Source: Pseudotabrizicola sp.
Lineage (GTDB): Bacteria > Pseudomonadota > Alphaproteobacteria > Rhodobacterales > Rhodobacteraceae
NCBI RefSeq assembly: GCF_030684215.1
Contig: NZ_JAUXOV010000070.1
Location: forward strand, 248,001 to 312,000
Direction of reading: 5' to 3'
Length of the DNA: 64,000 nt
Shown: positions 591 to 62,190 of the stretch, piece by piece
Layout: every line of letters starts with the position of its first letter
Position numbering within the stretch: position 1 is the first letter of the stretch
Position numbers and translations under genes: made by a program
Notes under the pieces: generated by a model
Seen by the model: only the letters and a program-made list of their open reading frames with translations
The model's database searches: none
What the model was told of the DNA's origin: nothing

Positions 591-620
591 CCTCCGGCGG
601 GAGTATTTCGCAAGCAGCAA
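591..620 (+). repeat. Dispersed GAGTATTT element, copy A (AGCAGCAA tail)
   Basis: CCTCCGGCGG followed by GAGTATTT and the tail CGCAAGCAGCAA. It lies 8 bases beyond the stop of the esterase gene. It is the only copy in the window that is not on the same strand as a gene ending just upstream of it. The GCCTCCGGC before the core could form only a very short stem. Confidence 0.7.
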
Positions 621-627
621 AGGCTGG

Positions 628-1317
628 TCAGTCGACCTGCCCAACCAGTTTCAGGATCTGCGGGCCAAGGCTTTCTACCGCGCGTTTGACGCCATCTGCA
701 TTGGGATGGATGCCATCGGCCTGCATGAGTTCTGCAATCTGGCCGGGATCTGTGGCGTCGGGGTCGATCAGGCCAAAATAGCTGGCGATGTGCTGCGCGC
801 CGTATTGGGCCGCGAGCTCTGGGTAAAGCTGGTCGAAGGCGGTTTTGTAATCGGGACCGAAATTGCCCGGAGCCTCCATCCCGATCAGCAGAACCGGCAA
901 GGCGCGGGTTTGGGCCTCGACCAGAATTTTCTCAATATTGTTGCGTGTCACGACAGGTTGCAACCCGCGCAAGAGATCGTTGCCGCCCAAGGTTACGATC
1001 ATGGCATCAACCTCGGGTGTCAGGCTCCACGCCAGTCGCGAAAGGCCACCCGCCGAGGTATCGCCGGACACGCCGCCATTCAGCACGGTGATGTCGGCTC
1101 CCTGATCTGCCAGCCACAGATTAAGTTGCGGCACAAGACCTTCGCCATCGGGTAGACCGTAGCCGGCTGTCAGGCTGTCACCCAGCGCAAAAACGGTCAC
1201 GGATTCGGCATTCACGGCTGTGGCGACGGAAAACGGTAACGCCAGCGTGAAGGTCAGGTTGCGGATGCAGCGTAATGCGCCATATGCAACAGGGGACAGT
1301 GTAAAGGAAAAGATCAT
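628..1317 (-). CDS. tesA: GDSL-type arylesterase / lysophospholipase (TesA-like), secreted
   Basis: 229 residues. After a hydrophobic export signal (about residues 18-37) comes the SGNH-hydrolase block I, ALGDSLTAG, with nucleophile Ser48. Block III is GGNDLLRG and block V is DGIHPN, which carries the Asp/His pair. Family members hydrolyse short acyl esters, acyl-CoA or lysophospholipids in the periplasm. The only in-frame ATG before the signal peptide is at 1317. Its start codon shares two bases with that of the divergent ABC ATPase gene (CATG at 1315-1318). The arrangement matches enterobacterial tesA next to ybbA-ybbP. No strong ribosome-binding site is visible for this start. Confidence 0.88.
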   Translation of the reverse strand: MIFSFTLSPVAYGALRCIRNLTFTLALPFSVATAVNAESVTVFALGDSLTAGYGLPDGEGLVPQLNLWLADQGADITVLNGGVSGDTSAGGLSRLAWSLTPEVDAMIVTLGGNDLLRGLQPVVTRNNIEKILVEAQTRALPVLLIGMEAPGNFGPDYKTAFDQLYPELAAQYGAQHIASYFGLIDPDATDPGQIAELMQADGIHPNADGVKRAVESLGPQILKLVGQVD

Positions 1318-2014
1318 GGGTCAGACCGTTCTGGCGTTGAAGGATGCGACGCTTACTTTGGCAGGCAATGCCGGGCCGGTTGAGATTCTGAAGGGCATCG
1401 ACCTTGATGTCATGCAGGGCGAGACATTGGGTCTGATCGGTCCGTCCGGGTCTGGCAAGTCGTCTCTCCTCATGCTGATGGGCGGGCTGGAGCGCGCGAC
1501 ATCGGGGTCTGTCATTGCGCTGGGGTCGGATCTGACCGCTTTGGACGAGGATGCCCTCGCGCGCTTTCGTAGGGGGAATATGGGGGTGGTGTTCCAATCT
1601 TTCCACCTGATCCCGACAATGACCGCTTTGGAAAACGTTGCGGTGCCCTTGGAGTTGGCTGGCGTGACCGATGCCTTTGCCCGGGCCGAGGCGGAATTGC
1701 GCAGTGTGGGCCTTGGGTCGCGGATGGACCATTACCCGCGCCAGATGTCGGGGGGCGAGCAGCAGCGGGTGGCGCTTGCACGGGCCGCTGCGCCACGGCC
1801 GGCAATCTTGCTGGCTGATGAGCCGACGGGCAATCTGGACGGCGTGAACGGGTCGGCGATCATGGACATGCTGTTTGGTCTGCGCGACCGGCATGGGGCG
1901 ACGCTGGTGCTGGTGACCCATGCGCCGGAACTGGCGGCGCGGTGTGACCGGGTGGTACGGTTGGCTGATGGACGGATCGTGGGCGAAGACCGCATGAAGG
2001 CGGCGGCGGAATGA
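1316..2014 (+). CDS. ABC transporter ATP-binding protein (YbbA/LolD-type)
   Basis: 232 residues. All nucleotide-binding motifs are present in order: Walker A GPSGSGKSS, Q-loop at QSFHLIPT, signature MSGGEQQRVALARA, Walker B ILLADEPTGNLD, and switch His in VTHAPE. It belongs to the MacB/LolD/FtsE group of ATPases, which drive mechanotransmission rather than classical membrane translocation. A longer frame opens upstream at 1220, but the ATG at 1316 has a good AAAGGA site 7 bases before it. It overlaps the permease gene by 4 bases (ATGA). By analogy with YbbAP and its esterase neighbour, it probably acts on envelope lipids or lipoproteins; the substrate is unknown. Confidence 0.9.
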   Translation: MGQTVLALKDATLTLAGNAGPVEILKGIDLDVMQGETLGLIGPSGSGKSSLLMLMGGLERATSGSVIALGSDLTALDEDALARFRRGNMGVVFQSFHLIPTMTALENVAVPLELAGVTDAFARAEAELRSVGLGSRMDHYPRQMSGGEQQRVALARAAAPRPAILLADEPTGNLDGVNGSAIMDMLFGLRDRHGATLVLVTHAPELAARCDRVVRLADGRIVGEDRMKAAAE

Positions 2015-4539
2015 GCGGCATGACAACTTGGCCCCTTGCTTGGCGTCTGGCGCGGCGTGAATTGCGCGGCGGCCTGCGCGGGTTTCGTATTTTTCTGGCC
2101 TGCCTTGCGCTGGGCGTGATGGCAATTGCGTCTGTCGGCATGGTGCGCGCTGCGATCGAGGCGGGGTTGCGCGATCAGGGGTCGGTTCTGTTGGGCGGCG
2201 ATGCGCAGATGGAATTCACCTATCGTTTCGCGGATGACGGCGAGCGGGCGTATATGGACAGCATCGCCTCGGGTGTGTCGGAGGTGGTTGATTTCCGGTC
2301 GATGGCAGTGCGCGGCGACGACACAGCGCTGACCCAGATCAAGGCGGTGGACAGTGCCTATCCCCTGTTGGGTGAGGTGGCGCTGGAGCCGGATATTTCG
2401 CTGGATCAGGCATTTGCCACAATGAATGGCCTGCCCGGTGCGGTGATGGACCGGGTGTTGGTCGACCGGCTTGGTCTGTCACTGGGCGACACATTCCGGC
2501 TGGGCGTGCAGGAATTCCGCCTTGGTGCCGTGCTGCTGCGCGAACCAGACAGCGCCACGCAAGGGTTTACACTTGGCCCACGCACGATGGTGCAGACCCG
2601 TGATCTGGCGCAGTCGGGGCTGATCGGGCCGGGGTCGCTTTATGAAACCAAATACCGGATGACGCTGCCTGCGGGGGCTGACCTTGCCGCGCTAAGGGCG
2701 CAGACAGAAGCGGCATACCGCGACAAGGGCGTGCGCTGGCAAGACAGCCGCCGCGCCACACCAGGGGTGGAGCGCTTTGTAGAACGCATGGGGTCTTTCC
2801 TTATTCTGGTGGGCCTTGCCGGGCTGGCCGTCGGTGGGGTGGGGGTGTCTTCGGCGGTGCGGGCCTATCTGGATGGTAAGGTGTCTACCATTGCCACGCT
2901 CAAAACTCTGGGGGCCGAGGGCGGGATGATTTTCCGCGTGTATCTGTTGCAGATTGCAGTGCTGGCGGGTGTTGGCGTGGCCATCGGGCTGGTGCTTGGC
3001 ACTGTGATTCCGATGCTGCTGGCCCCGGTGATTTCGGCGTCATTGCCGCTGCCGGTGATCTTTCGTCCCTATCCGATGCCCCTGCTGGAGGCTGGATTCT
3101 ATGGGTTGGTGACGGCGCTTTTGTTCACGCTGTGGCCGCTGGCACGGACACAAAGCGTGCGGGCGGCGGCGCTGTATCGTGGCGCGGGCCGTGAAGGCTG
3201 GGCCGGCTGGCCTGCGGCTTTTTCTGTGGTGGGGTTGCTGGCGCTGTTGGTTGGGGGTGCGGTCTGGTTTTCGGGCGTGCCGGAACTGGCGCTTGGTTCT
3301 GCCGCCGGGATTGCCGGGGCGCTTTTGGTGCTGGCGGGGGCGGCATGGCTGTTGCGTCGGGCCGCCAACCGTGTGGCGCGGTCGGTGCTGGCGCGGGGCC
3401 GCGTTGCCTTGCGGCTTGCGTTGGCGGCCATTGGTGGCCCGCGGGCCGAAGCGACAAGTGTTGTGCTGTCACTGGGTCTTGGGCTGTCGGTGCTGGCGGC
3501 GGTGGGACAGATCGAGGCAAACCTGCGTATGGCAATCGCGACTGACCTGCCTGATCGCGCGCCATCGTATTTCTTCGTCGATATCCAACCTGACCAGATT
3601 GACGGCTTTCTGACCCGCGTGACCGAAGACCCTGCGGTCAGCAAAGTGGAGAGCGCGCCGATGTTGCGTGGCGTGGTTACCCAGATCAACGGCCGCCCCG
3701 CGCGGGATGTGGTGGGCGAGCATTGGGTTGTGCGCGGCGACCGGGGTGTGACCTATGCCGCAGCCCCGTCCGAGAACACGACCATCACCGCAGGCACATG
3801 GTGGCCTGCCGATTACGCGGGCGAGCCACAGATCAGCTTTGCCGCAGAAGAAGCGGGCGAGATGGGTCTGAAACTGGGCGACCGGATCACGACCAACATT
3901 CTGGGCCGCGACATCACCGCGACGATCACCAGCTTTCGTGAGGTCAATTTTTCCAGTGCAGGCATGGGCTTTGTGATGACCCTGAATCCTGCCGCCGTGT
4001 CAGGGGCACCGCATACCCACATTGCCACCGTTTATGCTGAACCGCAGGCGGAAGCCGCGATCCTGCGCGATCTGTCACGGGCCTATCCCAATATCACTGC
4101 GATCCGGGTCAAAGATGCGATCGAGCGGGTGACCGAGGCATTGGGTGCCATCGCTACCGCGACCGCATGGGCGGCGGCGGCGACGCTGTTGACCGGGTTT
4201 GTTGTGCTGATCGGTGCTGCAGCCGCAGGCGAGCGGGCGCGGGTCTATGAGGCGGCAGTGTTGAAAACCCTTGGGGCCACGCGTGGGCGTATCCTTGCCA
4301 GCTTTGCGCTGCGCTCTGCGCTGATGGGGGCTGCTGCGGGGGGTGTTGCCATTGTGGCGGGGGGCTTGGCGGGTTGGGCTGTGATGGTATTTGTGATGGA
4401 GACGAGCTACCGCTTTGAACCCATTTCGGCCTTGGCCATTGTCGCAGGCGGTGTGATCGCCACTCTTGGGGCGGGATTGGCCTTTGCCTTGCGCCCGCTT
4501 GCTGCGCGGCCGGCTCAGGTCTTGCGCTCTGCTGAATAA
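2011..4539 (+). CDS. FtsX-like ABC transporter permease (YbbP-type)
   Basis: 842 residues. The layout is that of the large YbbP permeases: an N-terminal membrane helix (about residues 22-48), a periplasmic domain to about 250, a block of helices (about 255-400), two central helices (about 402-450), a second periplasmic domain (about 500-700), and a C-terminal FtsX domain with three helices. The paired sequences TLKTLGAEGG and VLKTLGATRG mark the two repeated FtsX modules and their coupling helices. It is translationally coupled to the ATPase gene (ATGA overlap). MSGM offers a second ATG at 2020. Its partner lipid or protein is unknown. Confidence 0.88.
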   Translation: MSGMTTWPLAWRLARRELRGGLRGFRIFLACLALGVMAIASVGMVRAAIEAGLRDQGSVLLGGDAQMEFTYRFADDGERAYMDSIASGVSEVVDFRSMAVRGDDTALTQIKAVDSAYPLLGEVALEPDISLDQAFATMNGLPGAVMDRVLVDRLGLSLGDTFRLGVQEFRLGAVLLREPDSATQGFTLGPRTMVQTRDLAQSGLIGPGSLYETKYRMTLPAGADLAALRAQTEAAYRDKGVRWQDSRRATPGVERFVERMGSFLILVGLAGLAVGGVGVSSAVRAYLDGKVSTIATLKTLGAEGGMIFRVYLLQIAVLAGVGVAIGLVLGTVIPMLLAPVISASLPLPVIFRPYPMPLLEAGFYGLVTALLFTLWPLARTQSVRAAALYRGAGREGWAGWPAAFSVVGLLALLVGGAVWFSGVPELALGSAAGIAGALLVLAGAAWLLRRAANRVARSVLARGRVALRLALAAIGGPRAEATSVVLSLGLGLSVLAAVGQIEANLRMAIATDLPDRAPSYFFVDIQPDQIDGFLTRVTEDPAVSKVESAPMLRGVVTQINGRPARDVVGEHWVVRGDRGVTYAAAPSENTTITAGTWWPADYAGEPQISFAAEEAGEMGLKLGDRITTNILGRDITATITSFREVNFSSAGMGFVMTLNPAAVSGAPHTHIATVYAEPQAEAAILRDLSRAYPNITAIRVKDAIERVTEALGAIATATAWAAAATLLTGFVVLIGAAAAGERARVYEAAVLKTLGATRGRILASFALRSALMGAAAGGVAIVAGGLAGWAVMVFVMETSYRFEPISALAIVAGGVIATLGAGLAFALRPLAARPAQVLRSAE

Positions 4540-4616
4540 GGCGAAGGAGCACGCGTGCCGCGCGCGTTCTTTTGTCCGCGCCTTCTGTGGCTGCGCCACA
4601 ACCGGCGCGGGCGTTG

Positions 4617-4648
4617 CCTCCGGCGGGGATACTTTTGAACAGAAAATG
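4617..4648 (+). repeat. Dispersed GAGTATTT element, copy B (diverged)
   Basis: CCTCCGGCGGG followed by GATACTTTTGAACAGAAAATG. It is the most diverged copy, but it keeps the same GC-rich lead and the same position, 78 bases downstream of the permease stop and on its strand. It sits in the convergent gap before the HAD gene, which otherwise shows no intrinsic terminator. Confidence 0.5.
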
Positions 4649-4660
4649 TTCAGGTTCGTA

Positions 4661-5308
4661 TCAGAGACCCAGCAGGCGGGGCAGATCGTTCATGTCGAAA
4701 AATGGCTCTGCACCAACGGCGGTCAGTCTTTCGGCAGGGGTGTGGGCGGCAAATCCCATGCAACGCATCCCCGCCGCACTTGCTGCGCGTGCGCCTGTCG
4801 GGCTGTCTTCGATCACCACGCAATCGGTGGGCGCAACGCCCAGTTGGCCTGCGGCATGCAGATAAAGGTCGGGCGCGGGCTTTGGTGCGCCAAGCGTCTG
4901 ACCGGAGTAAAGATGGCCCCGAAACCGAGCGATCAGGCCAGGGTGCTGGCCCAGCGTGATCTGCATTTTCTGATCGGACCCGTTGGAGCCTATCGCAAAG
5001 GGAATGTCCGCCGTGTCCAACGCATCCAGCACGCCCAAAATGCCGGGGATCATCGGGGTACCTTTGGCCAGCCGGGTATAGAGGCGCTGATAGAAGTCAT
5101 CGACCCAGGTGTCGGGGAGTGTCGCCCCCGCCTTACGGGCGCGGTGGGCCACATCTGCCATTGTGCCGCCGATAAAGTCCCGTGCGATGACTTCCACGGG
5201 CAAGAGCAAGTCATGGCTGGCGAATTCGCCAACCAGCAACTCAAAGGTCATGCCCTCGCTGTCCACCACGACACCGTCACAGTCGAAAATCACGGCCCGA
5301 GGGGTCAT
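4661..5308 (-). CDS. HAD-superfamily hydrolase (beta-phosphoglucomutase/phosphatase-like)
   Basis: 215 residues. Motif I FDCDGVVVDSEG at residues 8-19 carries the nucleophile Asp and the acid/base Asp. Motif II is IGSNGS, motif III the Lys of APKPAPDLY, and motif IV VIEDSPTG. The helical cap between motifs I and II places it in subfamily IA, with sugar-phosphate phosphatases and phosphoglucomutases. The substrate cannot be read from the sequence. The gene overlaps the rsmD stop by ATGA (5305-5308), so the two are translated as a unit. It is the last gene of a three-gene operon that begins with the ferredoxin-reductase-like gene's upstream promoter region. Confidence 0.88.
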   Translation of the reverse strand: MTPRAVIFDCDGVVVDSEGMTFELLVGEFASHDLLLPVEVIARDFIGGTMADVAHRARKAGATLPDTWVDDFYQRLYTRLAKGTPMIPGILGVLDALDTADIPFAIGSNGSDQKMQITLGQHPGLIARFRGHLYSGQTLGAPKPAPDLYLHAAGQLGVAPTDCVVIEDSPTGARAASAAGMRCMGFAAHTPAERLTAVGAEPFFDMNDLPRLLGL

Positions 5309-5868
5309 TCTGGCATCCTTAGCAGGGTTACAGATGTGTCACCATATTTGCGCTGATCAAGCAGGGCCAGCCCTGCGGGTGGGATTGGCTGGGTGCTTTC
5401 TTCCCAGACAATCACGGCATTCGGGGCCAGCCAGCCGCCCGCAACGGCCGAGGCGATGGCCTTTTCCCCAAGACCTTTGCCGTAGGGCGGATCAAGGAAG
5501 ACCAGATCAAACGGCGCGCCCCGGTTGGCCCCAAGTTGCGTTGCATCGCGTCGCGAGATTTCGGTTTCGGCTGTCGCACGCATCAGGGCGATGTTGCGTT
5601 TGATCAGGCTTAGCGCGACCTTGCCGTCTTCGACGAATGTGGCCTGTGCAGCCCCGCGCGACAGCGACTCCAGCCCCAGGGCCCCAGTGCCGGCGAACAG
5701 ATCCAGCACCTTGGCTCCTTGCACCAGATTGCCGTGGCCACCGTTGAGCAGCAGATTGAAGATCGACTCGCGCACGCGGTCAGAGGTGGGGCGCAGATGT
5801 GCCTGCGCATCGCCTGCGCCAAGTGGTGTCAGATGCAACCCGCGCGCGCGGCCCCCGATGATCCTCAC
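5305..5868 (-). CDS. rsmD: 16S rRNA (guanine(966)-N2)-methyltransferase
   Basis: 187 residues. The N-terminus MRIIGGRARG and PTSDRVRESIFNLL are hallmarks of RsmD. The SAM-binding motif is VLDLFAGTGALGLESLSRGA and the catalytic motif is FLDPPYGKG (DPPY). The enzyme methylates G966 of 16S rRNA in the assembled small subunit. Translation starts at a GTG (5868-5866) that overlaps the stop of the upstream reductase gene (GTGA). With the ATGA overlap to the HAD gene, this makes a compact run of three coupled genes. Confidence 0.93.
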   Translation of the reverse strand: MRIIGGRARGLHLTPLGAGDAQAHLRPTSDRVRESIFNLLLNGGHGNLVQGAKVLDLFAGTGALGLESLSRGAAQATFVEDGKVALSLIKRNIALMRATAETEISRRDATQLGANRGAPFDLVFLDPPYGKGLGEKAIASAVAGGWLAPNAVIVWEESTQPIPPAGLALLDQRKYGDTSVTLLRMPE

Positions 5869-7067
5869 CTGAGCAGCGCCTTCAGATCGGTTGCAGGGTC
5901 CGCCACCAGACCAGGTGCGGGGGATTTTCCCGCCTCGATCAGGCGCTTGCCGACCATGTAGGCGCGGGCATCGTTCATCGCGTCCAGCGCCAGCAGGCGG
6001 TCGTCCTGGTAATACCAGAACGACACAGAATTGCCGTCGCCGGGGCGGGTTACAATCCGGTCATAGCCGGTGTTCAGACCGGCGATCTGCAATTTGCAAT
6101 CGTATTGATCGGACCAGAACCATGGTGCCGCAAGGTAGGGTTTTTCGGCACCAAGCATATTTGCCGCGACCACCTCGGCCTGATCAATCGCATTGCCCAC
6201 AGATTCCAATCGAAGCCGCCCTGCGCCCCATGGAAAGGATGCACAATCGCCCGCTGACCAGACGTCGGGCGCCGAAGTGCGGCCATGGGCATCGGTTGCG
6301 ATTCCGTTGTCCAGTGCGATGCCAGCCGCTTCGGCAAGGGTGGTGTTTGGCACGATGCCCACGCCTACAATCACGAAATCTGTTGCGATTTCGCGGCCGT
6401 CGGACAGACGCGCTCCCGTGACACGGCCCTCACCCAGCAAGCGCTCCAATCCGGTGGATTCCAGTAGTGTCACGCCATGTGCCATGTGCAAGGCGCGGAA
6501 GTAATCTGACGTTTCAGGTGCCGCGACGCGTTGCAAAATGCGTGGGGCCATTTCCAGAACGGTGACTTGCAGGCCCAGCTTTGCGGCCACTGCCGCTGCT
6601 TCCAGACCGATATAACCACCGCCTATAATCACCACCCGGCGGCCGGGCTGAAATTCGGGCCGCATTGCGTCAACATCGGCCAGACCGCGCACGGTATAGA
6701 CCCCGGCCATATCGCCGCCGATTGCGGCGGGCAGGCGGCGCGGGCTGGAACCAGTTGTCAGTGCCAATGCATCATAGGCGATGGCTTCACCGCCGACATT
6801 TACGGTCTTGGTTGCCGTGTCCAGTCTGGTAACCGGCGCACCCAACCGCAGATCCACCCTTTGATCGGCCCAGAATTCAGGCGCGCGCAGCCACAGACGC
6901 TCGGCTGCCATCTCGCCCATCAGATAGCCTTTGGACAGCGGCGGGCGCTGATAAGGCGGTGCGATTTCCTCGCCAATCATTGTGAGTGGCCCGGTATGGC
7001 CAAGGCTTCGCAGCTTTGCCGCCAGTGCCGCTCCGGCCTGCCCTGCGCCGACGATCACCACATGCAT
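5865..7067 (-). CDS. NAD(P)/FAD-dependent ferredoxin reductase-type oxidoreductase
   Basis: 400 residues. Two Rossmann folds are clear: the FAD-binding VVIVGAGQAGAALAAKL at the N-terminus and the NAD(H)-binding VVIIGGGYIGLEAAAVA about residue 145. PYQRPPLSKGYL is typical of the putidaredoxin reductase/rubredoxin reductase family, and WSAGDCA is the second FAD contact. Such enzymes pass electrons from NADH to a ferredoxin or rubredoxin, often for a P450 or dioxygenase, but no such partner lies nearby. Two ATGs are possible (7073 and 7067). The AGAGGA site is 8 bases before 7067 and only 2 before 7073, so I chose 7067. It lies divergent to the peroxiredoxin gene. Confidence 0.88.
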   Translation of the reverse strand: MHVVIVGAGQAGAALAAKLRSLGHTGPLTMIGEEIAPPYQRPPLSKGYLMGEMAAERLWLRAPEFWADQRVDLRLGAPVTRLDTATKTVNVGGEAIAYDALALTTGSSPRRLPAAIGGDMAGVYTVRGLADVDAMRPEFQPGRRVVIIGGGYIGLEAAAVAAKLGLQVTVLEMAPRILQRVAAPETSDYFRALHMAHGVTLLESTGLERLLGEGRVTGARLSDGREIATDFVIVGVGIVPNTTLAEAAGIALDNGIATDAHGRTSAPDVWSAGDCASFPWGAGRLRLESVGNAIDQAEVVAANMLGAEKPYLAAPWFWSDQYDCKLQIAGLNTGYDRIVTRPGDGNSVSFWYYQDDRLLALDAMNDARAYMVGKRLIEAGKSPAPGLVADPATDLKALLR

Positions 7068-7147
7068 GGTCATATTCCTCTGGTCGCCCAACCGACCGGA
7101 CCCTATATCCTGTGCCTAAGTAAACGCAACGCGAGAAGGATATATTC

Positions 7148-7633: not shown

Positions 7634-7640
7634 TTGCAAA

Positions 7641-10132: not shown

Positions 10133-10133
10133 T

Positions 10134-21037: not shown

Positions 21038-21060
21038 TTCATCTTGGCTGAAATACTCTT
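21038..21060 (-). repeat. Dispersed GAGTATTT element, copy C (CCAAGATGAA tail)
   Basis: Read on the minus strand: AAGAGTATTTCAGCCAAGATGAA. It lies 60 bases downstream of the dapA stop and on its strand. It is preceded by a run of eight C (21061-21068) and a GGGGG...CCCCC dyad (21071-21088). Confidence 0.7.
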
Positions 21061-21117: not shown

Positions 21118-21993
21118 TCAGTTCAACAGCCCGGCATGGCGCATCGCAGCCTTGATCTTGTCCTTGGTGCCATCGGTCAGGCCGACAAGCGGCAGCCGCA
21201 CATCTTCGGCACAACGGCCCAGCAGTGACAGACCGTACTTTGCCCCCGCCAGCCCCGGCTCGATGAAAATAGCCTCATGCAGCGGCATCAGCCTGTCCTG
21301 AATTTGCAAAGCGGTGCGGTAATCCCCGGCCAGAGTGGCATTCTGGAACTCGGCGCACAGGCGCGGGGCCACGTTTGCCGTGACCGAAATGCATCCGGTG
21401 CCGCCATGCGCGTTAAAGCCAAGCGCGGTCGCATCTTCGCCCGACAGCTGGATAAAATCCTTGCCGCAGGTCTCGCGTTGCATCGACACGCGCTCGATTT
21501 TGCCGGTCGCGTCTTTTACCCCAATGATCCGCGGCAGTCTCGACAACGCGCCCATGGTGTCGGGGGACATATCCACCACCGACCGGCCCGGAATGTTGTA
21601 AATGATGATCGGTAGGGTGCAGCAATCATGCAGTGCTGTGAAATGCGCGATCAATCCGGCTTGCGTTGGCTTGTTGTAATAGGGTGTCACCACCAGCGCG
21701 ACATCAGCTCCCACCCGTTCGGCGTGCTGAATAAGCCGGATGCCTTCAACCGTGTTGTTTGACCCGGCCCCTGCAATGACCGGCACACGGCCCGCAGCGA
21801 ATTTCACCACCGCCTCGATCATCGCCTCATGTTCTTCATGGCTCAGCGTCGGGCTTTCGCCCGTTGTGCCCACCGGAACCAGCCCATGCGAGCCTTCGGA
21901 AATTTGCCAGTCGACCAGCTTTTTCAGCATGTCCAGATCAAGTTCGCCGTTCTTGAACGGCGTAACCAAGGCGGGGATGGACCCTTTGATCAT
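21118..21993 (-). CDS. dapA: 4-hydroxy-tetrahydrodipicolinate synthase
   Basis: 291 residues, usual length. [14 protein letters not shown] carries the catalytic Thr pair, [13 protein letters not shown] the Tyr of the proton relay, and [13 protein letters not shown] the Schiff-base Lys that binds pyruvate. It condenses pyruvate and aspartate semialdehyde on the way to diaminopimelate and lysine. It stands alone, divergent to the transglycosylase gene across 176 bases; the gap shows a TTGACA at 22109 but no matching -10. A copy of the dispersed element lies just beyond its stop. Confidence 0.94.
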
Positions 21994-24127: not shown

Positions 24128-24150
24128 TTGCTGCTTTCCAAATACTCCCG
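24128..24150 (-). repeat. Dispersed GAGTATTT element, copy E (AGCAGCAA tail)
   Basis: Minus-strand reading: GCGGGAGTATTTGGAAAGCAGCAA. It lies 39 bases downstream of the transporter stop at 24189 and on its strand. An 8-base perfect stem (24152-24175) comes immediately before the core. Confidence 0.75.
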
Positions 24151-24151
24151 C

Positions 24152-24175
24152 GCGGAGCGCTCCTACACGCTCCGC
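24152..24175 (-). terminator. Hairpin preceding dispersed element E
   Basis: GCGGAGCG (24152-24159) and CGCTCCGC (24168-24175), 8-base loop. On the minus strand it follows the transporter stop by 14 bases and is followed by GCGGGAGTATTTGG, so it looks like a weak intrinsic terminator made of a hairpin plus the GAGTATTT core. Confidence 0.5.
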
Positions 24176-27729: not shown

Positions 27730-27748
27730 CCGGGGGCTCTGCCCCCGG
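27730..27748 (+). terminator. GC hairpin preceding dispersed element D
   Basis: CCGGGGGC, loop TCT, GCCCCCGG, then ACCCCCGGAGTATTTTTG. A strong 8-base stem 22 bases after the stop at 27708, with the T-run supplied by the dispersed element's core. Confidence 0.65.
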
Positions 27749-27749
27749 A

Positions 27750-27777
27750 CCCCCGGAGTATTTTTGCCAAGATGAAA
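27750..27777 (+). repeat. Dispersed GAGTATTT element, copy D (CCAAGATGAAA tail)
   Basis: CCCCCGGAGTATTTTTGCCAAGATGAAA, directly abutting the stop codon of the convergent FMN-reductase gene (27778). It is 42 bases downstream of the oxidoreductase gene, on its strand, after a perfect hairpin. Confidence 0.75.
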
Positions 27778-35260: not shown

Positions 35261-35285
35261 TTGCTGCTTTCAAAATACTCCGGGG
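35261..35285 (-). repeat. Dispersed GAGTATTT element, copy F (AGCAGCAA tail)
   Basis: Minus-strand reading: CCCCGGAGTATTTTGAAAGCAGCAA. It lies 113 bases downstream of the mltB-like stop (35398), on its strand, in the convergent gap after the smc-coupled gene. A GTCC-GAA-GGAC stem (35288-35298) lies just before it and a GCGGC-GTA-GCCGC stem at 35360-35372. Confidence 0.75.
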
Positions 35286-52900: not shown

Positions 52901-52948
52901 ATGAGTATTTGGAAAGCAGCAATTGTCAGAGGCGCGTCATGCGCCTGA
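52901..52948 (+). CDS. Possible 15-codon leader ORF containing element G (speculative)
   Basis: ATG (52901) follows GAGGGCGAAAG and opens a 15-codon frame beginning MSIWKAA, which ends at a TGA after the start of the next gene. The coding sequence is simply the dispersed element plus a few codons. Nothing shows it is translated; the similar frame at 59321 (MSIYAKMK) makes it worth noting. Confidence 0.2.
   Translation: MSIWKAAIVRGASCA
52903..52922 (+). repeat. Dispersed GAGTATTT element, copy G (AGCAGCAA tail)
   Basis: GAGTATTTGGAAAGCAGCAA, a perfect match to copies E and I. It lies 31 bases after the pdxJ stop, on its strand. It is the only copy between two plus-strand genes with the next start close by (52939). 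No stem precedes it. Confidence 0.75.
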
Positions 52949-53385: not shown

Positions 53386-53389
53386 CGAC

Positions 53390-55358: not shown

Positions 55359-56272
55359 CAGACGCACCCACCCGCGCGGGCTTTGTTGCCCTGATTGGCG
55401 AACCCAATGCCGGCAAATCCACCCTTCTGAACCGCATGGTCGGGGCCAAGATCTCGATTGTGACACACAAGGTTCAGACCACCCGCACCCGTATTCGGGG
55501 TGTGGCGATCGAAGGGCCGGCGCAGATCGTCTTTGTCGATACCCCGGGCCTGTTCCGCCCTCGCCGCCGTCTGGACCGTGCGATGGTCAAAGCGGCATGG
55601 GGTGGCGCATCGGATGCCGATGTGATCGTGCTGATGATCGAGGCGCACCGTGGCCTGACCGAAGGCGTGCAGGCCATCATCGACCGGATGCGCGATCAGT
55701 TGCCGCAGGGTCAGCCGGTAGCTTTGGCGATCAACAAGATCGACCGCGTGAAAGCCGAGGTGCTGCTGGCGCTGGCCGAAAAGCTGAACGAAGCCTTTTC
55801 CTTTGCCAAAACCTTCATGATCAGCGCTGAAAAAGGCTATGGTGTCAAAGATCTGCGCGAATGGCTGGCCGAACAACTGCCTGCGGGTCCGTGGTTCTAT
55901 CCCGAAGATCAAATCGCCGATCTGCCGATGCGGATGATCGCTGCCGAGATGACGCGCGAAAAGCTGACCCTGCGCCTGCATGAAGAACTGCCCTATCAGC
56001 TGACGGTCGAGACCGAAAAATGGGAAGACAAGCCCGACGGATCGACGCGTATCGACCAGATCGTTTATGTCATGCGTGATGGTCACAAGGGCATCGTTCT
56101 GGGCAACAAGGGTGAGACGATCAAGGCCATCGGCTCTGCCGCGCGGGCGGATATTTCAGAGTTTCTTGACCGCACTGTGCATCTGTTCTTGCAGGTCAAG
56201 GTTCGCCCCAACTGGCTGGACGAACCCGAGCGCTATTCCGAAATGGGGCTGGATTTCAAAGACGGCGACTGA
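55355..56272 (+). CDS. era: GTPase Era
   Basis: 305 residues. G1 [13 protein letters not shown]2 around [14 protein letters not shown]3 DTPGL, G4 INKID, then a C-terminal KH domain with [13 protein letters not shown]. It binds 16S rRNA in ribosome assembly. It overlaps rnc and is followed by the DUF1491 gene 2 bases later. The frame is open upstream but ATG 55355 is the family start. Confidence 0.96.
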
Positions 56273-56274
56273 CC

Positions 56275-56619
56275 ATGCCAGCGCCTGATATCCGCCTGCA
56301 AGCGAACCTTTGGGTCTCGGCCTATCTGAACCGTCTGCGGCTGGCCGATATTCCTGCCTATGTCACCCGCAAGGGTGATCCCACCGCCGGCACCGTGCTG
56401 GTCAAGGTGGCGCTGCTGGACGGTACTGCCCGCGCCTTTGAGCGTGGTTATGACATGGCGACTGGCTCGCGGGTGTGGCGGCAGATGGCCGATGGACCAG
56501 AACCCGAGGTTGACGCCATGCTCACCCGTGCCGGACAGCGCGACCCTGACCTGTGGGTGATCGAACTGGAAAGCAGAACCGGGCGCACCTTGCTGGATGA
56601 GGACGGGTTGTCATCCTAA
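56275..56619 (+). CDS. DUF1491 family protein
   Basis: 114 residues, all domain. LQANLWVSAYLNRLRLADIPAYVTRKGDPTAGTVLVK is the DUF1491 signature; the C-terminal DPDLWVIELESRTGRTLL closes it. The function is unknown. It is restricted to alphaproteobacteria as far as I recall and sits between era and recO there. Its last 9 bases overlap the convergent Pr6Pr gene (56611). Confidence 0.9.
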   Translation: MPAPDIRLQANLWVSAYLNRLRLADIPAYVTRKGDPTAGTVLVKVALLDGTARAFERGYDMATGSRVWRQMADGPEPEVDAMLTRAGQRDPDLWVIELESRTGRTLLDEDGLSS

Positions 56620-57216
56620 TCGCCGCTTTGCCGTGATCAGTATTGCCGAGACGGCCACAAAAGCCAGCACCATCCCGGCGCAATTTAGCGAGACAGACAA
56701 CCACCCCAAGCGCCCCACATCCAGAAACGGATAGGGCCAGAACCCGGTCAGCGCCCCGCGTGTGAGCGCATAGGTCAGATAGGCCAGCGGCCAGATCAGC
56801 GCTGTGCCATGGACCCCTTTGCCCGGCTCAGGCGCAAACAGCAGCCACCAGACCAGAGTCAGCGCTGGCACCGCCGTATGCAATCCCTGATCCGCCCACC
56901 ACGCCATGCCGACCGGATCGACCAGTCCCGCCAACAGGGTGTGATACACCAGCCCTACCATCACAATCGCCACAGTCACAGCAAAGGCCAGCCGCCCCGG
57001 AACCTGCCAACGCATCGCCACCAGCGCCATCATCACCGCCACCACCAGATTGGTCAGCACGGTGAAATATCCGGCCATCGCCCAAAGTGTTGCCGATACC
57101 GAAATGCTGCGCATCTCAACATGGCTGGCATCGAACTGCAACCGCAGCGACACGATAGCCAAGGCAAAGATGAAGGCCGCGCTCAGTCGTGGCGGCAAGG
57201 GCAGGTCATTGGTCAT
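56611..57216 (-). CDS. Pr6Pr family membrane protein
   Basis: 201 residues, six helices. YFTVLTNLVVAVMMALVAM and GLVYHTLLAGLVDPVGMAWWADQGLHTAVP are the conserved blocks of Pr6Pr (Predicted 6-TM) proteins, and WPLAYLTYALTRGALTGFWPYPFLDV is the C-terminal one. No function known. It is inserted on the opposite strand between DUF1491 and recO, so it breaks the usual era-recO run. ATG at 57216; a longer frame is unsupported. Confidence 0.85.
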   Translation of the reverse strand: MTNDLPLPPRLSAAFIFALAIVSLRLQFDASHVEMRSISVSATLWAMAGYFTVLTNLVVAVMMALVAMRWQVPGRLAFAVTVAIVMVGLVYHTLLAGLVDPVGMAWWADQGLHTAVPALTLVWWLLFAPEPGKGVHGTALIWPLAYLTYALTRGALTGFWPYPFLDVGRLGWLSVSLNCAGMVLAFVAVSAILITAKRRLG

Positions 57217-57303
57217 TTGGAGAGTATCTGGCGCAACGCATTGGGGCTTCAAGCGGAAATGCAGTGCTTGAAGCCCCACGCCGCGCCTGCAAAGATCAGC
57301 CCT

Positions 57304-58029
57304 ATGGAATGGCGCGAAGACGGGGTGCTTTTGTCCATGCGACCGCATGGCGAAGGCTCTGCAATCATCGAGGTGTTTACCAGCGGCCATGGCCGTCATT
57401 TCGGCGTGGTCCGGGGCGGGGCGTCGCGCAAACGCGCGCCGCTGCTGCAACCCGGCGCGCAGCTTGACCTGACATGGCGGGCGCGTCTGGATGATCAGAT
57501 CGGCGTGTTTCTGGCCGAACCCGTGCAATCACGCGCCGCCGTGCTGGAAAGCCCGCTGGCTCTGGCGGGTCTCACGGCGGCTTGCGCGCTGTTGCACATC
57601 AGCATGCCCGAGCGCGACCCCCACCCGATTTTGTATCGCAGCACGGTGTCGTTGATGGATGCCATGGCAGGCGGAACCGATTGGGTGGGCGATTATCTGC
57701 GGTGGGAAATGCTGCTGCTTGATGAGATCGGCTTTGGCCTGGATCTGTCGCGCTGTGCCATAACCGGGCAGCGCGATGATCTGGGCTACGTCAGCCCGCG
57801 CACCGGGCGCGCGGTGTCACGCAACGCTGCTGGCGATTGGGTCCCCAGGCTGCTGCCTTTGCCACAGGCGCTGATGGGGCAGGGTCCGGTTACCCTCGCC
57901 GACGCGGCGCAGGCGCTGGCCATCACCGGCCATTTCCTTGGCCGGGAACTGGCGTCTGATATGCGGCCAAGCCCGTTACCCGAGTCCCGCGCTCGCTTGC
58001 TTGCGCGGATCAATCGCAGTTCGGGCTGA
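57304..58029 (+). CDS. recO: DNA repair protein RecO
   Basis: 241 residues. WREDGVLLSMRPHGEGSAIIEVFTSGHG is the N-terminal OB domain start; GVVRGGASRKRAPLLQPG and RWEMLLLDEIGFGLDLSRCA are further RecO landmarks. The Cys cluster of zinc RecOs is lost except for one Cys. It anneals ssDNA and loads RecA with RecR. The ATG at 57304 lies 87 bases from the divergent Pr6Pr start. Confidence 0.93.
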   Translation: MEWREDGVLLSMRPHGEGSAIIEVFTSGHGRHFGVVRGGASRKRAPLLQPGAQLDLTWRARLDDQIGVFLAEPVQSRAAVLESPLALAGLTAACALLHISMPERDPHPILYRSTVSLMDAMAGGTDWVGDYLRWEMLLLDEIGFGLDLSRCAITGQRDDLGYVSPRTGRAVSRNAAGDWVPRLLPLPQALMGQGPVTLADAAQALAITGHFLGRELASDMRPSPLPESRARLLARINRSSG

Positions 58030-58103
58030 CAAACGACGCAAAGTGTCGCGCCCGGATCAGACCTGCCGCCCAATCCTTGGGCAAATGGCAGGCGAGATAT
58101 GAC

Positions 58104-59324
58104 ATGGCCAATAAATTCATTCCCCTTCACCTGAAGCATGCTCCGGCCCCAAAGGTGCAAAGTTTTGCCCTTTTGTCGGGGCTGGAGGCAGCCGTGCGCG
58201 GCACCTTGGTTTCGGCCATGCCGCTGGCGGTCTATGACGCACTTGGCAGCGCCGAGGCAACCTCATCGGCCTATTTCGTTGCCGGCATCGTCTCGTTGAT
58301 CTGGGGCCTCATGGTGCCATGGGCCACGCGGCACATTCCGCGGCGCTGGATGTATACGCTGGGTTGCGGCCTCTACCTGATTGGCATGAGCATTGCGATT
58401 GTGGGCACCGGCTGGCTGATGCCCGTTGCGCTGACCTGCCTTGCGATGGCCACGGCGACCACCTTTGTCTGCCTGAACGCCTATATTCTCGACTATATTG
58501 ACCGCCAGAACCTTGGCCGCAGTCAGTCTATGCAGATGGTCTTTGCCGCCGGGCCATGGGCGATCGGACCGCTTCTGGGAGTCTGGTTGCGCAGCATCTG
58601 GGCACCCTTGCCTTTTGTGGTAGCCGGGGCCTGCGCGATTTTGCTGCTGACAGTTTTTTGGGTGCTGCGATTGGGCAATGGCAAACAGATCAGCCGTGCC
58701 AAGGGGCCTGCCGCCAACCCGCTGGCCTATCTGGGCCGGTTCTTCGCGCAACCCCGGCTGATTGCAGGATGGCTGTTTGCGGTCATGCGCTCCTGCGGCT
58801 GGTGGGTCTATGTGGTCTACCTGCCGATCTTTTGCATCGAGGCAGGCTTGGGCGACAAGGTTGGCGGCGTGGCCCTGTCGCTGTCCAACGCGCTTCTGTT
58901 CGCCTCACCGGTGATGCTGCGCTATGCCCGGTCTGCCAGCGTGCGCCGCACGGTGCGCTTCGCTTTTGGCGCCGGTGGCATGTTGTTCCTTGCTGCCGCC
59001 GCTGTATCGCCACTGCCTTGGGCCACGGTGCTGTGCTGCATGGCTGCGGCGGTGTTTCTGGTGCTATTGGACATCGTTGGCGGCCTGCCGTTTCTGATGG
59101 CTGTGAAGCCGTCCGAGCGAACCGAGATGTCAGCAGTCTACTCCAGCTTTCGCGATGTCTCGGGCATCCTGACCCCAGGGGCTGCATGGTTGGTGCTGTT
59201 GGTGGCCCCTTTGCCGGGGATCTTCGCGGCGTCTGGGGTCGGTCTTGTGATAGCTTGGGCGATCTCAGGCCGATTGCACCCCCGCCTTGGTGTGCAGCGC
59301 GTGGTGCAGCAGGTGGAAAGATGA
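58104..59324 (+). CDS. MFS-family transporter
   Basis: 406 residues with twelve predicted helices. The loop between helices 2 and 3 is VPWATRHIPRRWMYTLG (a variant of the MFS G-x-x-x-D/R-R/K motif), and VGGVALSLSNALLFASPVM begins the second half. The substrate is unknown. The ATG at 58104 follows GGCGAGATATGAC. Its stop codon TGA is part of dispersed element H1. Confidence 0.85.
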   Translation: MANKFIPLHLKHAPAPKVQSFALLSGLEAAVRGTLVSAMPLAVYDALGSAEATSSAYFVAGIVSLIWGLMVPWATRHIPRRWMYTLGCGLYLIGMSIAIVGTGWLMPVALTCLAMATATTFVCLNAYILDYIDRQNLGRSQSMQMVFAAGPWAIGPLLGVWLRSIWAPLPFVVAGACAILLLTVFWVLRLGNGKQISRAKGPAANPLAYLGRFFAQPRLIAGWLFAVMRSCGWWVYVVYLPIFCIEAGLGDKVGGVALSLSNALLFASPVMLRYARSASVRRTVRFAFGAGGMLFLAAAAVSPLPWATVLCCMAAAVFLVLLDIVGGLPFLMAVKPSERTEMSAVYSSFRDVSGILTPGAAWLVLLVAPLPGIFAASGVGLVIAWAISGRLHPRLGVQRVVQQVER

Positions 59325-59344
59325 GTATTTACGCCAAGATGAAA
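59321..59344 (+). repeat. Dispersed GAGTATTT element, copy H1 (CCAAGATGAAA tail)
   Basis: ATGAGTATTTACGCCAAGATGAAA. Its first four bases contain the MFS stop codon. It faces H2 22 bases away; the arms match in 21 of 24 bases. Confidence 0.75.
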
Positions 59345-59366
59345 TCAAAAGCGCAGTTCGCCGCCG

Positions 59367-59390
59367 TTTCATCTTGGTGAAAGTACTCAT
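59367..59390 (-). repeat. Dispersed GAGTATTT element, copy H2 (CCAAGATGAAA tail)
   Basis: Minus strand: ATGAGTACTTTCACCAAGATGAAA. It lies 104 bases downstream of the mcd stop (59494) and on that gene's strand, completing the inverted pair with H1. Confidence 0.72.
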
Positions 59391-59493
59391 ATTACGACCT
59401 TGAGGCCCAAACACGCCAGATGTCCAAGGCCCGATGCCGTTTGCGGAGGCGGCTTCGGGCGCAGTATGAGACCTTTTCAGGCGCGTCGCACGA

Positions 59494-61161
59494 TTAATCC
59501 AGCAATCGCCGGGCAATCACCTGCGCTTGAATCTCGGCGGCCCCTTCAAAGATGTTCAGGATGCGGGCATCACACAGGATACGGCTGATCTGATACTCCA
59601 GTGCAAAGCCGTTGCCGCCGTGGATCTGCAAGGCATTGTCGGCCGCTGCCCAGGCCACACGCGCGCCAAGCAGTTTGGCCATCCCTGCTTCCAGATCGCA
59701 GCGCTTGTCATGGTCCTTTTGCCAAGCACTGAAGTAAGTCAGCTGACGTGCCACCATGATCTCTACCGCCATCATCGCCAGCTTGCTGGCCACGCGAGGG
59801 AATTCGATCAGAGCCTGGCCGAACTGCTTGCGGTCCTCGGCATAGCTCAGCCCCACATCGAGCGCGTTCTGCGCGACACCGATGGCGCGGGCAGCGGTCT
59901 GGATGCGGGCAGATTCGAAGGTCTGCATCAATTGCTTGAACCCCTGACCCTCTACCCCGCCCAGCAGGTTTTCGCCCTTTACCTTGAAGTCATCAAAGTT
60001 GACGGTGTATTCCTTCATGCCGCGGTAGCCCAACACCTCGATCTCGCCACCCGACAGGCCGGGGTCGACAAAGGGCGTCTCGTCCGTGCCGGGGGTCTTT
60101 TCGGCCAGAAACATCGACAGCCCACGATAGTCGCTGGTCGCATCCACGCTGCGGGCCAGCACGGTCATCACATGGGTGCGCGCCGCATGGGTGATCCAGG
60201 TCTTGTTGCCGGTGATGGTCCAACTGTCGCCTTCGCGCCGCGCCCGCGTGCGCAAAGAGCCGAGATCCGATCCGGTGTTGGGCTCGGTGAACACCGCCGT
60301 CGGCAGGATTTCCCCGCTTGCCAGTTTGGGCAACCAATGCGCCTTTTGCTCGGGCGTGCCGCCGCACAGGATCAGCTCCGCGGCAATCTCTGACCGGGTG
60401 GCGAGGGAGCCCACGCCGATATAGCCGCGCGACAGTTCCTCGGACACCACGACCATGCTGGCCTTGGACAGGCCAAAGCCGCCGAATTCCTCTGGGATGG
60501 TCAGGCCAAACACACCCATTTCCGCCAGCTGGTCGATCACCGACATCGGGATCAGCGCATCCTTGAGGTGCCATTCATGGGCAAAAGGCGTGACCTGTTC
60601 GCCAGCAAAGCGGCGGAACTGGTCGCGGATCATCTCCAACTCGTCATCCAGCCCGGTTGCGCCAAAGGTTGCATTGGCGCGGGTGTCACGCATCAGCGCC
60701 ACAAGGCGTGCGCGGGCGGCGGCGGTGTTTCCTTGGGCCATAAGGGTCTGTGCCGCCGCACCGCAGGCTGCCGGGGAAAGGTTCAGGTCCTGCAAGCGCG
60801 CGACCTCTCCCTGGCTCATGGGGATGCCCCCATGAATCTGGTTCAGATACTCGCCGAAAGTGATCTGGAGGATCAGTGCTTCCATTTCGCCAAACTTGCC
60901 ATCCGCCGTCAGCCGGGTCGCCCAAGCCTGCATCTGGCGCAGGGCTTCGGTATAGGTTGCAAGCCATGCCATCGCATGGGCGGCGTATTGGTGTTCTTCC
61001 ATCGCGACAGCAGAGATCTTTCCCGAGATGCTGACCATGTCGCGCAGGTTTTCGCGGCCAGCGTTGAACAGTGCCTCGGTTTCGGGCAGCGCTTGCGCCG
61101 TCAGCGCCAGCAGGTCTGCCAGCAGCGGCGAAGTGGGGGTCGTCTGTCCGTCATGGGCCAT
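59494..61161 (-). CDS. mcd: (2S)-methylsuccinyl-CoA dehydrogenase (acyl-CoA dehydrogenase with long N-terminal extension)
   Basis: 555 residues. A 170-residue N-terminal helical domain (LLADLLALTAQALPETEALF to GNTAAARARLVALMRD) precedes the standard acyl-CoA dehydrogenase fold: FTEPNTGSDLGSLRTRA, RTHVMTVLARS, FESARIQTAARAIGVAQ, and the catalytic region at LNIFEGAAEIQAQVIARRLL. Ordinary acyl-CoA dehydrogenases are about 380-400 residues; this length and extension fit Mcd of the ethylmalonyl-CoA pathway, which oxidises methylsuccinyl-CoA to mesaconyl-CoA and passes electrons to ETF. The upstream region carries TTTGCA/TGCAAA repeats. The substrate is inferred. The ATG at 61161 opens MAHDGQ; 22 upstream residues are unlikely. 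Confidence 0.78.
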   Translation of the reverse strand: MAHDGQTTPTSPLLADLLALTAQALPETEALFNAGRENLRDMVSISGKISAVAMEEHQYAAHAMAWLATYTEALRQMQAWATRLTADGKFGEMEALILQITFGEYLNQIHGGIPMSQGEVARLQDLNLSPAACGAAAQTLMAQGNTAAARARLVALMRDTRANATFGATGLDDELEMIRDQFRRFAGEQVTPFAHEWHLKDALIPMSVIDQLAEMGVFGLTIPEEFGGFGLSKASMVVVSEELSRGYIGVGSLATRSEIAAELILCGGTPEQKAHWLPKLASGEILPTAVFTEPNTGSDLGSLRTRARREGDSWTITGNKTWITHAARTHVMTVLARSVDATSDYRGLSMFLAEKTPGTDETPFVDPGLSGGEIEVLGYRGMKEYTVNFDDFKVKGENLLGGVEGQGFKQLMQTFESARIQTAARAIGVAQNALDVGLSYAEDRKQFGQALIEFPRVASKLAMMAVEIMVARQLTYFSAWQKDHDKRCDLEAGMAKLLGARVAWAAADNALQIHGGNGFALEYQISRILCDARILNIFEGAAEIQAQVIARRLLD

Positions 61162-61208
61162 GGCGCGCTTCCTGTCTTTGGATTCTGCGAGTGCTTTTGA
61201 GCTAATCA

Positions 61209-61245
61209 CTTTGCAAGTGCAGCGCAACTTAATTTCAATGCAAAG
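61209..61245 (-). promoter_or_regulatory. TTTGCA/TGCAAA inverted repeat upstream of mcd
   Basis: CTTTGCA (61209-61215) and TGCAAAG (61239-61245) flank TGCAGCGCAAC and an AT-rich stretch, 48 bases upstream of the mcd ATG. The half-site CACTTTGCAAG resembles the AACTTTGCAAA motif I recall for the RamB/PccR (ScfR) family of short-chain acyl-CoA regulators. Confidence 0.45.
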
Positions 61246-61364
61246 CCATTGGTATGATCGAAAATGTCGCAGGCAATCCTGGCGCGAGCGGTAGGCAGAC
61301 TGGTTTTGCGGCTGACGCGCAAACTGGGCTTTCCATTTTCGTCGGCGCGCGCAATGCAGGGCAC

Positions 61365-62150
61365 ATGATTGAAAACGCCGTCCTTTATGTCTCGGTTGAT
61401 CAGGGGTTTTGGCCTTTGACTGCTGCTGTTGTCGTTACCTTGCTGGCGGGCTTCGTCAAGGGAGCGGTTGGTTTTGCGATGCCGCTGATCATGATCTCGG
61501 CCTTCTCGGCCTTTTTGCCGCCCGAGGTGGCACTTGCAGGGCTGATCTTGCCCACATTAGTCACAAACCTGAGTCAGGCATTCCGGCAAGGGTTTGGTCC
61601 GGCAAAGACCACCGCATGGCAATTCAGGCGCTTTTTGATCGGAACGGTGGTATTCATCGCCATTGCTGCGCAGTTTTTCGATCACATTCCACGTGTCGCC
61701 TATCTACTGCTTTTGGGCGTGCCAGTCACCGCCTTTGCCGCGCTGCAGCTTGCAGGCGTGCCGCTGGCCCTGCGGCTGGAGCATCGCAGCCGTGCGGAGT
61801 GGGGGCTGGGGGTGATTGGCGGGCTTTATGGTGGCGTGTCGGGCATCTGGGGGCCGCCCTTGCTGGTCTATCTCTTGTCGATCAATGCCAGCAAGCTTGA
61901 TGCGGTGCGTGCGCAGGGTGTGGTGTTTCTGATTGGCGCAGTGGCGCTGCTGGCAGCTCACCTGGGCACGGGGCTTGCCAATGCACATACGATGGCTTTT
62001 TCGGCGGCGCTGATTGTGCCCGCGCAACTCGGGATGGTGCTGGGCTATCGTCTGCAGGACCGTCTGCCACAGGCGCGGTTCCGGCGCTGGACCCAGGCGC
62101 TTTTGGTGGTGACGGGGCTGAACCTGATTGTGCAGGCACTGGTGGCCTAG
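61365..62150 (+). CDS. TauE/SafE family membrane exporter
   Basis: 261 residues, eight helices. FVKGAVGFAMPLIMISAFSAFLPPEVALAGLILPTL and GGLYGGVSGIWGPPLLVYLLS are the duplicated G-x-G-x-hhh TauE repeats. The family exports sulfite, sulfoacetate or other organic anions. I used ATG 61365, as upstream residues (from 61254) read through the mcd control region. It is divergent to mcd over 203 bases. Confidence 0.85.
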   Translation: MIENAVLYVSVDQGFWPLTAAVVVTLLAGFVKGAVGFAMPLIMISAFSAFLPPEVALAGLILPTLVTNLSQAFRQGFGPAKTTAWQFRRFLIGTVVFIAIAAQFFDHIPRVAYLLLLGVPVTAFAALQLAGVPLALRLEHRSRAEWGLGVIGGLYGGVSGIWGPPLLVYLLSINASKLDAVRAQGVVFLIGAVALLAAHLGTGLANAHTMAFSAALIVPAQLGMVLGYRLQDRLPQARFRRWTQALLVVTGLNLIVQALVA

Positions 62151-62164
62151 GGTAAATGCGCTCT

Positions 62165-62190
62165 GCGCGGGAGTATTTGGAAAGCAGCAA
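62165..62190 (+). repeat. Dispersed GAGTATTT element, copy I (AGCAGCAA tail)
   Basis: GCGCGGGAGTATTTGGAAAGCAGCAA, 15 bases after the TauE-family stop and on its strand. GCGC-TCT-GCGC (62159-62169) forms a small stem before it. Confidence 0.75.

Follow-up and report, generated by a model that had tools for sequence, protein, structure and literature searches.

A bipartite element with type-specific tails at gene ends of Pseudotabrizicola and other Rhodobacteraceae

Introduction

What kind of signal is a short sequence that recurs at the ends of genes of one bacterium and is followed there by one of a few fixed tails? The question is raised by a stretch of 64,000 nucleotides (the window) within the genome of Pseudotabrizicola sp. 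(4.44 Mb in 81 contigs; the source genome), for which a preliminary description had reported ten copies of a dispersed element with a common core and conserved tails, and had considered a terminator, an RNA-processing site, or a repeat like the repetitive extragenic palindromic (REP) sequences. That observation is partly confirmed here and its interpretation partly supported. The element consists of a core and a tail conserved together, it lies at gene ends, its facing pairs carry one type in both arms, and its tails are often specific to a genome. We incline, with less than firm confidence, to the reading that it is a module of Rhodobacteraceae that marks the boundary at gene ends and is recognized in a type-specific way.

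Results

Core, tails, and types

The exact core GAGTATTT occurs eight times in the window (601+, 21051-, 24140-, 27756+, 35273-, 52903+, 59323+, and 62171+), as compared to a mean of 0.33 and a maximum of 3 in shuffled sequences. Genome-wide, 188 exact cores stand against 40 occurrences of the reversed word, and the element is larger than first described. The core reported as common to all ten copies is a variant in two of them (4627+ and 59381-), whereas a conserved tail is present in all ten. The layout is bipartite, i.e., a core, three variable bases, and a fixed tail, with a GC-rich hairpin usually situated directly in front; the 83 exact cores examined exhibit this two-part motif, with the exception of some cores in coding sequence.

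Type A (GAGTATTT-N3-AAGCAGCAA) and type B (GAGTATTT-N3-CCAAGATGAA) correspond to the two groups of tails distinguished earlier, except that two copies had been exchanged between them (24140 possesses AAGCAGCAA, 27756 possesses CCAAGATGAA). The copy at 4627, previously regarded as diverged, is not decayed but belongs to a third type, distinct in both core and tail. This type C (GGATATTT-N3-AACAG[AA/GT]AATG, i.e., with the tail AACAGAAAATG or AACAGGTAATG) came to light when the sequence behind these hairpins was searched. Following the same hairpins, GGATATTT-like cores are present in other genera as well (loci L211 in genome G303, L230 in G405, and L199 in G457), so that this core extends beyond the source genus.

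Unless stated otherwise, the following counts refer to a set of 864 kb, comprising the window and 800 kb more of the source genome, which was partly picked where core matches were listed, so that element densities in this set do not equal genome averages. With up to three mismatches allowed, it contains 113 copies (54 of type A, 37 of B, and 22 of C), and the reversed sequence, used as control, contains none. The core precedes the tail AAGCAGCAA in 49 of its 53 occurrences, and in type C both core and tail differ from those of A and B; core and tail are coupled across a free spacer. For 467 genes called in the source genome, the 3' regions have GAGTATTT as their commonest 8-mer; signals consisting of a hairpin and a T-run, recognized by a simple rule of our own, number 42 in these regions, hardly more than the 34 on the opposite strand.

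Position relative to genes

Genes were called with a simple hexamer model of our own (819 genes, 90% coding), the borders of which are not those of a curated annotation. Nine of the 113 copies lie in called genes, and the reversed control has no copies at all; the preliminary description, against which copies spread equally into genes or present at chance frequency would have spoken, is not refuted by these counts. Among the 104 intergenic copies, 41 are situated in convergent gaps, where 12.6% would be expected from the intergenic bases (P = 5e-12), and 7 in divergent ones, for which the expectation is 27% (P = 1e-7); the tandem gaps hold 34 on the strand of the genes and 22 on the other. As reported before, and by our own gene calls as well, six of the nine sites in the window are convergent gaps; the distance from the upstream stop, formerly given as 0-113 bases, extends to 117 bases.

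The strand consistency claimed for the element was overstated, since convergent gaps provide it for free and some copies lie in divergent gaps. What remains of it is a bias among unpaired copies in tandem gaps (25 on the gene strand vs. 13 on the other), which is weak (P = 0.07). Concerning distances, 48 unpaired copies are on the gene strand (25 in tandem and 23 in convergent gaps), and in 32 of them the core lies 20-60 bases behind the stop. In tandem gaps, 12 of 13 unpaired copies on the opposite strand have their end 13-45 bases away from the stop codon of the gene toward which they are directed; in convergent gaps, 18 of 23 unpaired copies end no more than 33 bases from the stop of the opposing gene. 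Many copies are thus situated where transcription on their own strand would enter the next gene in antisense, and these distances are as expected of antisense barriers.

Facing pairs

At the last-but-one site of the window, for which the preliminary description lists two copies, the second, H2, is in fact located on the minus strand and faces the first, H1, such that the site constitutes an inverted pair (Table 1). Eighteen pairs of this kind, arranged tail to tail with 30-50 bases between the cores, were found, and 17 of them carry one type in both arms (chance 0.37, P = 6e-7). For a comparison across the family, taken as Rhodobacteraceae in the GTDB sense, 199 genomes were searched for facing pairs of exact cores with 28-58 bases between them: such pairs exist in 58 genomes (around 280 pairs), and the reversed pattern was found once each in 2 genomes. 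Tails were compared in 75 of these pairs (15 genomes), the cores of which are 32-58 bases apart within the searched range; the identity of the tails amounts to 0.842 for the two arms of a pair, 0.804 for different pairs in the same genome, and 0.567 for different genomes.

The 75 pairs and the 18 of the source genome (93 pairs, 16 genomes) were also compared position by position against 5000 permutations within genomes. At the first three tail bases, the match between arms exceeds all permutations. The three spacer bases behave differently: identical spacers are at expectation (8 vs. 8.0), and single spacer bases match below expectation (27, 482, and 1003 of the 5000 permutations are as low at N1, N2, and N3, respectively); in the 75 pairs, spacers at least as alike as those observed occur in 2000 of 2000 shuffles. 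The mismatch at N1 reflects perhaps the avoidance of a perfect long palindrome. The hairpin classes of the arms are unmatched as well (6 of 18 pairs alike, 4.2 expected). As neither spacer nor hairpin is matched, the pairs point to selection on two separate sites instead of copying, and inverted duplication or conversion as the cause of the matched arms is disfavoured; most simply, both arms would be under selection for one and the same tail type.

Conservation is no higher in paired arms than in single copies (mean mismatches 0.58 in 36 arms vs. 0.32 in 68 singles). By eye, the gaps between arms in the source genome are not repeated from pair to pair and no interior is shared, and compensating changes within tail pairs were not noticed. 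Helical phasing of the gaps was considered on account of two clusters among the 18 source-genome pairs, and was rejected, with no clusters apparent in the 75 family pairs.

The hairpin in front of the core

Three hairpin ends recur in front of the core (GCCTCCGGCGG, GCGCTCCGCGCGG, and ...CCCCC[GA]). One of them precedes 64 of the 88 A and B copies that were examined for it, and in at least 51 of these 64 the end of the predicted stem falls in a range from 2 bases ahead of the core to 3 bases inside it; of the remaining copies, 14 are of an AT-type that has no such hairpin and 10 are of other kinds. The mean folding energy of all 88 copies is -14.5, that of 432 control 40-mers -9.4; TATTT alone follows in place of a longer T-run. 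The hairpin ends are distributed unevenly among the types: GCCTCCGGCGG and GCGCTCCGCGCGG accompany 40 of 54 copies of type A, the third hairpin 14 of 22 copies of type C, and the third or none 31 of 37 copies of type B. At one locus of the source genome (C32:197124- and 197151+; L018 17124 and 17151), two cores are situated back to back around a single hairpin (AAATACTCCCG...CGGGAGTATTT), laid out as in a classical two-way terminator; the tail of the plus copy differs there (AAAGGTAAAA).

Copies in the window

The ten copies of the window are listed in Table 1. When the window was searched against Rfam, no family fitted: there were five matches up to E = 1, none of which reached the gathering score. 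Around the pair H1/H2 (59316-59395), the two strands gave weak matches to mir-2363 (31.8 and 28.0 bits, with a gathering score of 90), which are a sign of the palindrome only.

Table 1. Positions of the ten copies of the element in the window, and of a composite repeat in genome G423
Copy	Type	Position	Strand	Hairpin end	Core	Spacer	Tail	Context
A	A	590..620	+	590-600	601-608	609-611	612-620	opposite strand to both flanking genes; core end 19 bases before stop of 628-1317 (minus, GDSL lipase family)
B	C	4616..4648	+	4616-4626	GGATACTT 4627-4634	4635-4637	AACAGAAAATG 4638-4648	convergent gap
C	B	21038..21058	-		21051-21058		21038-21047	59 bases behind stop of DHDPS-family gene 21118-21993 (minus)
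D	A	24128..24160	-	24148-24160	24140-24147		24128-24136	convergent gap
E	B	27732..27776	+	C-rich	27756-27763		27767-27776	convergent gap; stop of opposing gene 14 bases past core
F	A	35261..35280	-		35273-35280		35261-35269	convergent gap; 117 bases behind stop
G	A	52903..52922	+	no GC hairpin	52903-52910		52914-52922	30 bases behind pdxJ stop; 28 before next called same-strand start
H1	B	59323..59343	+				59334-59343	left arm of facing pair; core overlaps stop codon of MFS gene 58104-59324
H2	B	59368..59388	-		GAGTACTT 59381-59388		59368-59377	right arm, 50 bases between H1 and H2 cores; behind acyl-CoA dehydrogenase gene 59494-61161 (minus)
I	A	62158..62190	+	62158-62170	62171-62178		62182-62190	convergent gap, TauE-family gene / PEPCK gene
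G423 composite, loci L277-L296		stretch a 60993, 112012; stretch b 62172, 122455, 129377

Dialects among relatives

A fixed combination of hairpin and core, TGCCTCCGGCGGGAGTATTT, has matches in 20 of 25 chosen genomes and is followed there by differing tails, e.g., GAAAATCGAA (G289), GCACAAAGAAG (G405), GACGAAGAGAAG (G367), and GCAAGATGAA (G457), with two kinds each in G404 and G479; the same hairpin and core are thus combined with different tails in many genera. Within the 199 family genomes, tails of the form AGCAGCAA are restricted to the source genome, and AAGATGAA tails are found in 32, the preceding dinucleotide being largely genome-specific where copies were listed. Counts of the core and of the reversed word differ widely among genomes (187/8 in G310, 182/9 in G387, 21/34 in G311); over the whole class, such counts are uninformative, codon use rendering the reversed word a poor control for the bare core. 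Among the matches listed for named genomes, Pseudotabrizicola and Gemmobacter show many copies of the tail known from the source genome, and single matches occur in unrelated phyla, too. Ruegeria pomeroyi has GAGTATTT-N3-ACCAGAAAGAAG, which occupies the gap between trmB and aroA and forms a facing pair where a cytochrome peroxidase gene adjoins one of the crcB family; the copies on its megaplasmid include 12825+ and the facing pair 36665+/36717-. Stretches of 50 kb from Paracoccus denitrificans, Dinoroseobacter shibae, and Pseudorhodobacter turbinis were without clear copies, and so were the second 50 kb of this megaplasmid.

To look beyond the family, 284 genomes from other families of the class were searched for GAGTATTT-N3-8-ATGAA and gave between 0 and 6 matches each, as compared to 47 in the source genome; four other family members in that draw, which belong to other dialects, have 0 or 1. 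The ATGAA-tailed element is thus not above chance outside the family.

In the congener G408, type C accounts for 10 of 14 copies in 400 kb, mostly as the variant AACAGATAATG, and remnants of A and B are present; a loss of the system in this genome, which had been considered, is wrong given these type C copies. Nineteen comparable copies in 16 distinct gaps show that some sites of the source genome are absent in G408, around half being recognizable there by eye. The copy C48:24877 follows a C-rich stretch common to both genomes and is of type B in the source genome and of type C in G408, and the B-B pair at C32:14975/15030 corresponds to a degenerate A-like pair. Few of 30 ileS and 14 pgm orthologues (with the frame misassigned at several loci) possess an element near the gene end, which hints at fast turnover.

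Discussion

A candidate mechanism

Intrinsic terminators consist of a GC-rich hairpin followed by a U-rich stretch at gene ends and serve both directions in convergent gaps, and the RNA usually ends about 8 bases behind the hairpin. By analogy, we infer an intrinsic-terminator layout for the sequence of hairpin, purines, TATTT, and three bases. The module usually begins with a short GC hairpin, directly followed by G-purine-purine-TATTT, three little-constrained bases, and a type-specific tail of around 10 bases. Hairpin and UAUUU would stall or release RNA polymerase, and, as TATTT and N3 together comprise 8 bases, the RNA end would be placed at the border between spacer and tail. A putative type-specific trans-acting factor might read core and tail and thereby sharpen the boundary, which would end the gene and keep transcription from entering its neighbour in antisense; in facing pairs, two sites of the same type would stop both directions. 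The coupling of the tail, the matching within pairs that leaves out the spacer, and the drift between genera suggest a site read by an evolving specific factor.

In a wider sense, it is possible, if doubtful, that gene boundaries in Rhodobacteraceae are marked by several coexisting site types, each with its own factor, that these types gain or lose ground and drift from genus to genus on a constant hairpin and core, and that facing pairs of one type act as two-way barriers between convergent genes. They would then be a bacterial counterpart of site-specific transcription-boundary proteins, such as Reb1 and TTF-I of eukaryotes, which are site-specific transcription roadblocks. The likeness would lie in a sequence-specific site at the gene end that is read by a factor in trans (putative here); the differences are the bacterial setting, the hairpin that is usually present, and the several site types per genome.

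Some observations weigh against a boundary module of this kind. Besides the weak strand bias in tandem gaps, 12 of the 34 same-strand tandem copies lie at most 61 bases from the next called start (10 within 30), and copies in apparent operons argue against strong termination, because a strong terminator would be harmful there; from their protein starts, we take such neighbours to be glgC-glgA and pdxA-rsmA. No GC hairpin precedes 14 of the 88 A and B copies. In genomes with at least three pairs, the excess of tail identity within pairs is modest (0.843 vs. 0.798 after shuffling, with 2 of 2000 shuffles as high), most of these genomes possessing one dominant tail. Furthermore, genome G423 contains a composite of around 130 bases, in which an arm with a CTCC hairpin faces a different arm with the tail GGCAAGATGAA; its interior is, by eye, common to the copies, it is also found in divergent gaps, and it looks like a true dispersed repeat, such that an amplified or mobile origin is conceivable. 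Termination, the factor, and its readout of DNA or RNA are all inferred by us from sequence. Concerning the copies in apparent operons, those of type C at C44c 13759 and C44d 34466 of the source genome precede glgA-like and rsmA-like genes, the core of the former being situated directly before the called start.

Alternative explanations

Rather unlikely, yet to be taken seriously, is an origin as miniature mobile repeats, resembling REPINs or miniature inverted-repeat transposable elements (MITEs) and moved by an enzyme other than the REP-associated tyrosine transposase (RAYT). The types A, B, and C would then be subfamilies, the pairs the mobile unit and the singles its leftovers, with core and tail representing the transposon tip and the transposase-binding part, and gene ends would merely tolerate insertion. 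The narrowly spaced inverted doublets with arms of one type agree with this, as do the several types per genome with another one dominant in the congener, the sites that one of the two species has and the other lacks, and the composite of G423. The REP-likeness proposed earlier holds in so far as the element is dispersed, extragenic, present in several groups per genome, and found as singlets and inverted doublets, as REPs and REPINs are (Bertels and Rainey 2011, PMC3116915), and the over-representation of such doublets is shared. What separates it from them is that its extragenic placement is not random (convergent gaps being preferred), that its arms are no better conserved than singles, opposite to REPINs, and that spacers and hairpins are unmatched; the gaps of the source-genome pairs, too, are not repeated. 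The Y1 transposase domain of RAYTs (PF01797) was absent from 46 of 46 genomes, with 5 of 14 control genomes positive, for which reason REPs driven by RAYT were rejected.

That the copies are intrinsic terminators of the ordinary kind, poor in their U-tract, and keep the tail only because downstream DNA affects RNA polymerase appears improbable. The terminator reading of the preliminary description has in its favour the place at gene ends and the GC hairpins of three classes before TATTT, and the element shares with intrinsic and bidirectional terminators the use of convergent gaps in both directions and, in part, the U-rich stretch behind a GC hairpin; it differs from them in the short TATTT instead of a T-run, in hairpins conserved in sequence, and in a type-specific tail past the expected RNA end. 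A tail set by RNA polymerase should vary neither by genome nor by type, nor should it match within pairs, and the earlier statement that termination does not explain the tails is upheld. An mRNA 3'-end processing or stabilization site, or a partial attenuator inside operons, read as RNA, seems quite improbable: it would account for the copies close before the next start in tandem genes, and GU-AUU inside the core presumably resembles the RNase E site of other bacteria, but opposite-strand copies and facing copies at gene ends are not explained by processing of sense RNA. The least probable candidate, to which we give very little weight, is a DNA uptake signal or another chromosomal address tag. 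Dialects, inverted pairs, and location at gene ends would fit; uptake signals are reported to form terminator hairpins in Neisseria and Pasteurellaceae (Kingsford et al. 2007, PMC1852404), and they share with our element a short lineage-specific motif, facing pairs at gene ends, and the link to terminators. They generally number 1,000 or more copies per genome, however, whereas the source genome has only 188 exact cores in 4.4 Mb, nearly all copies are extragenic, with only 9 of 113 in called genes, and the hairpin is usually outside the motif and not formed by a pair of motifs.

Relation to earlier reports and significance

A description of the element was not found in the literature searched, which was mostly open-access. 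As far as the consulted parts of the respective publications reach, no motif is given for the PNPase-dependent 3' ends of R. sphaeroides (PMC7866481), two other terminator-like motifs of Rhodobacterales are tied to cco and cysS genes (PMC8632094), and a search by genus name in PMC3733652 revealed none of the queried genera.

If a factor reads the tails, the boundary module would represent an unrecognized level of control at gene ends in a large family that includes marine and phototrophic model organisms. The dialects would then help to find that factor, which should covary with the tail. If, instead, the pairs are mobile, they would constitute a family of miniature repeats that lacks the transposase to be expected of it.

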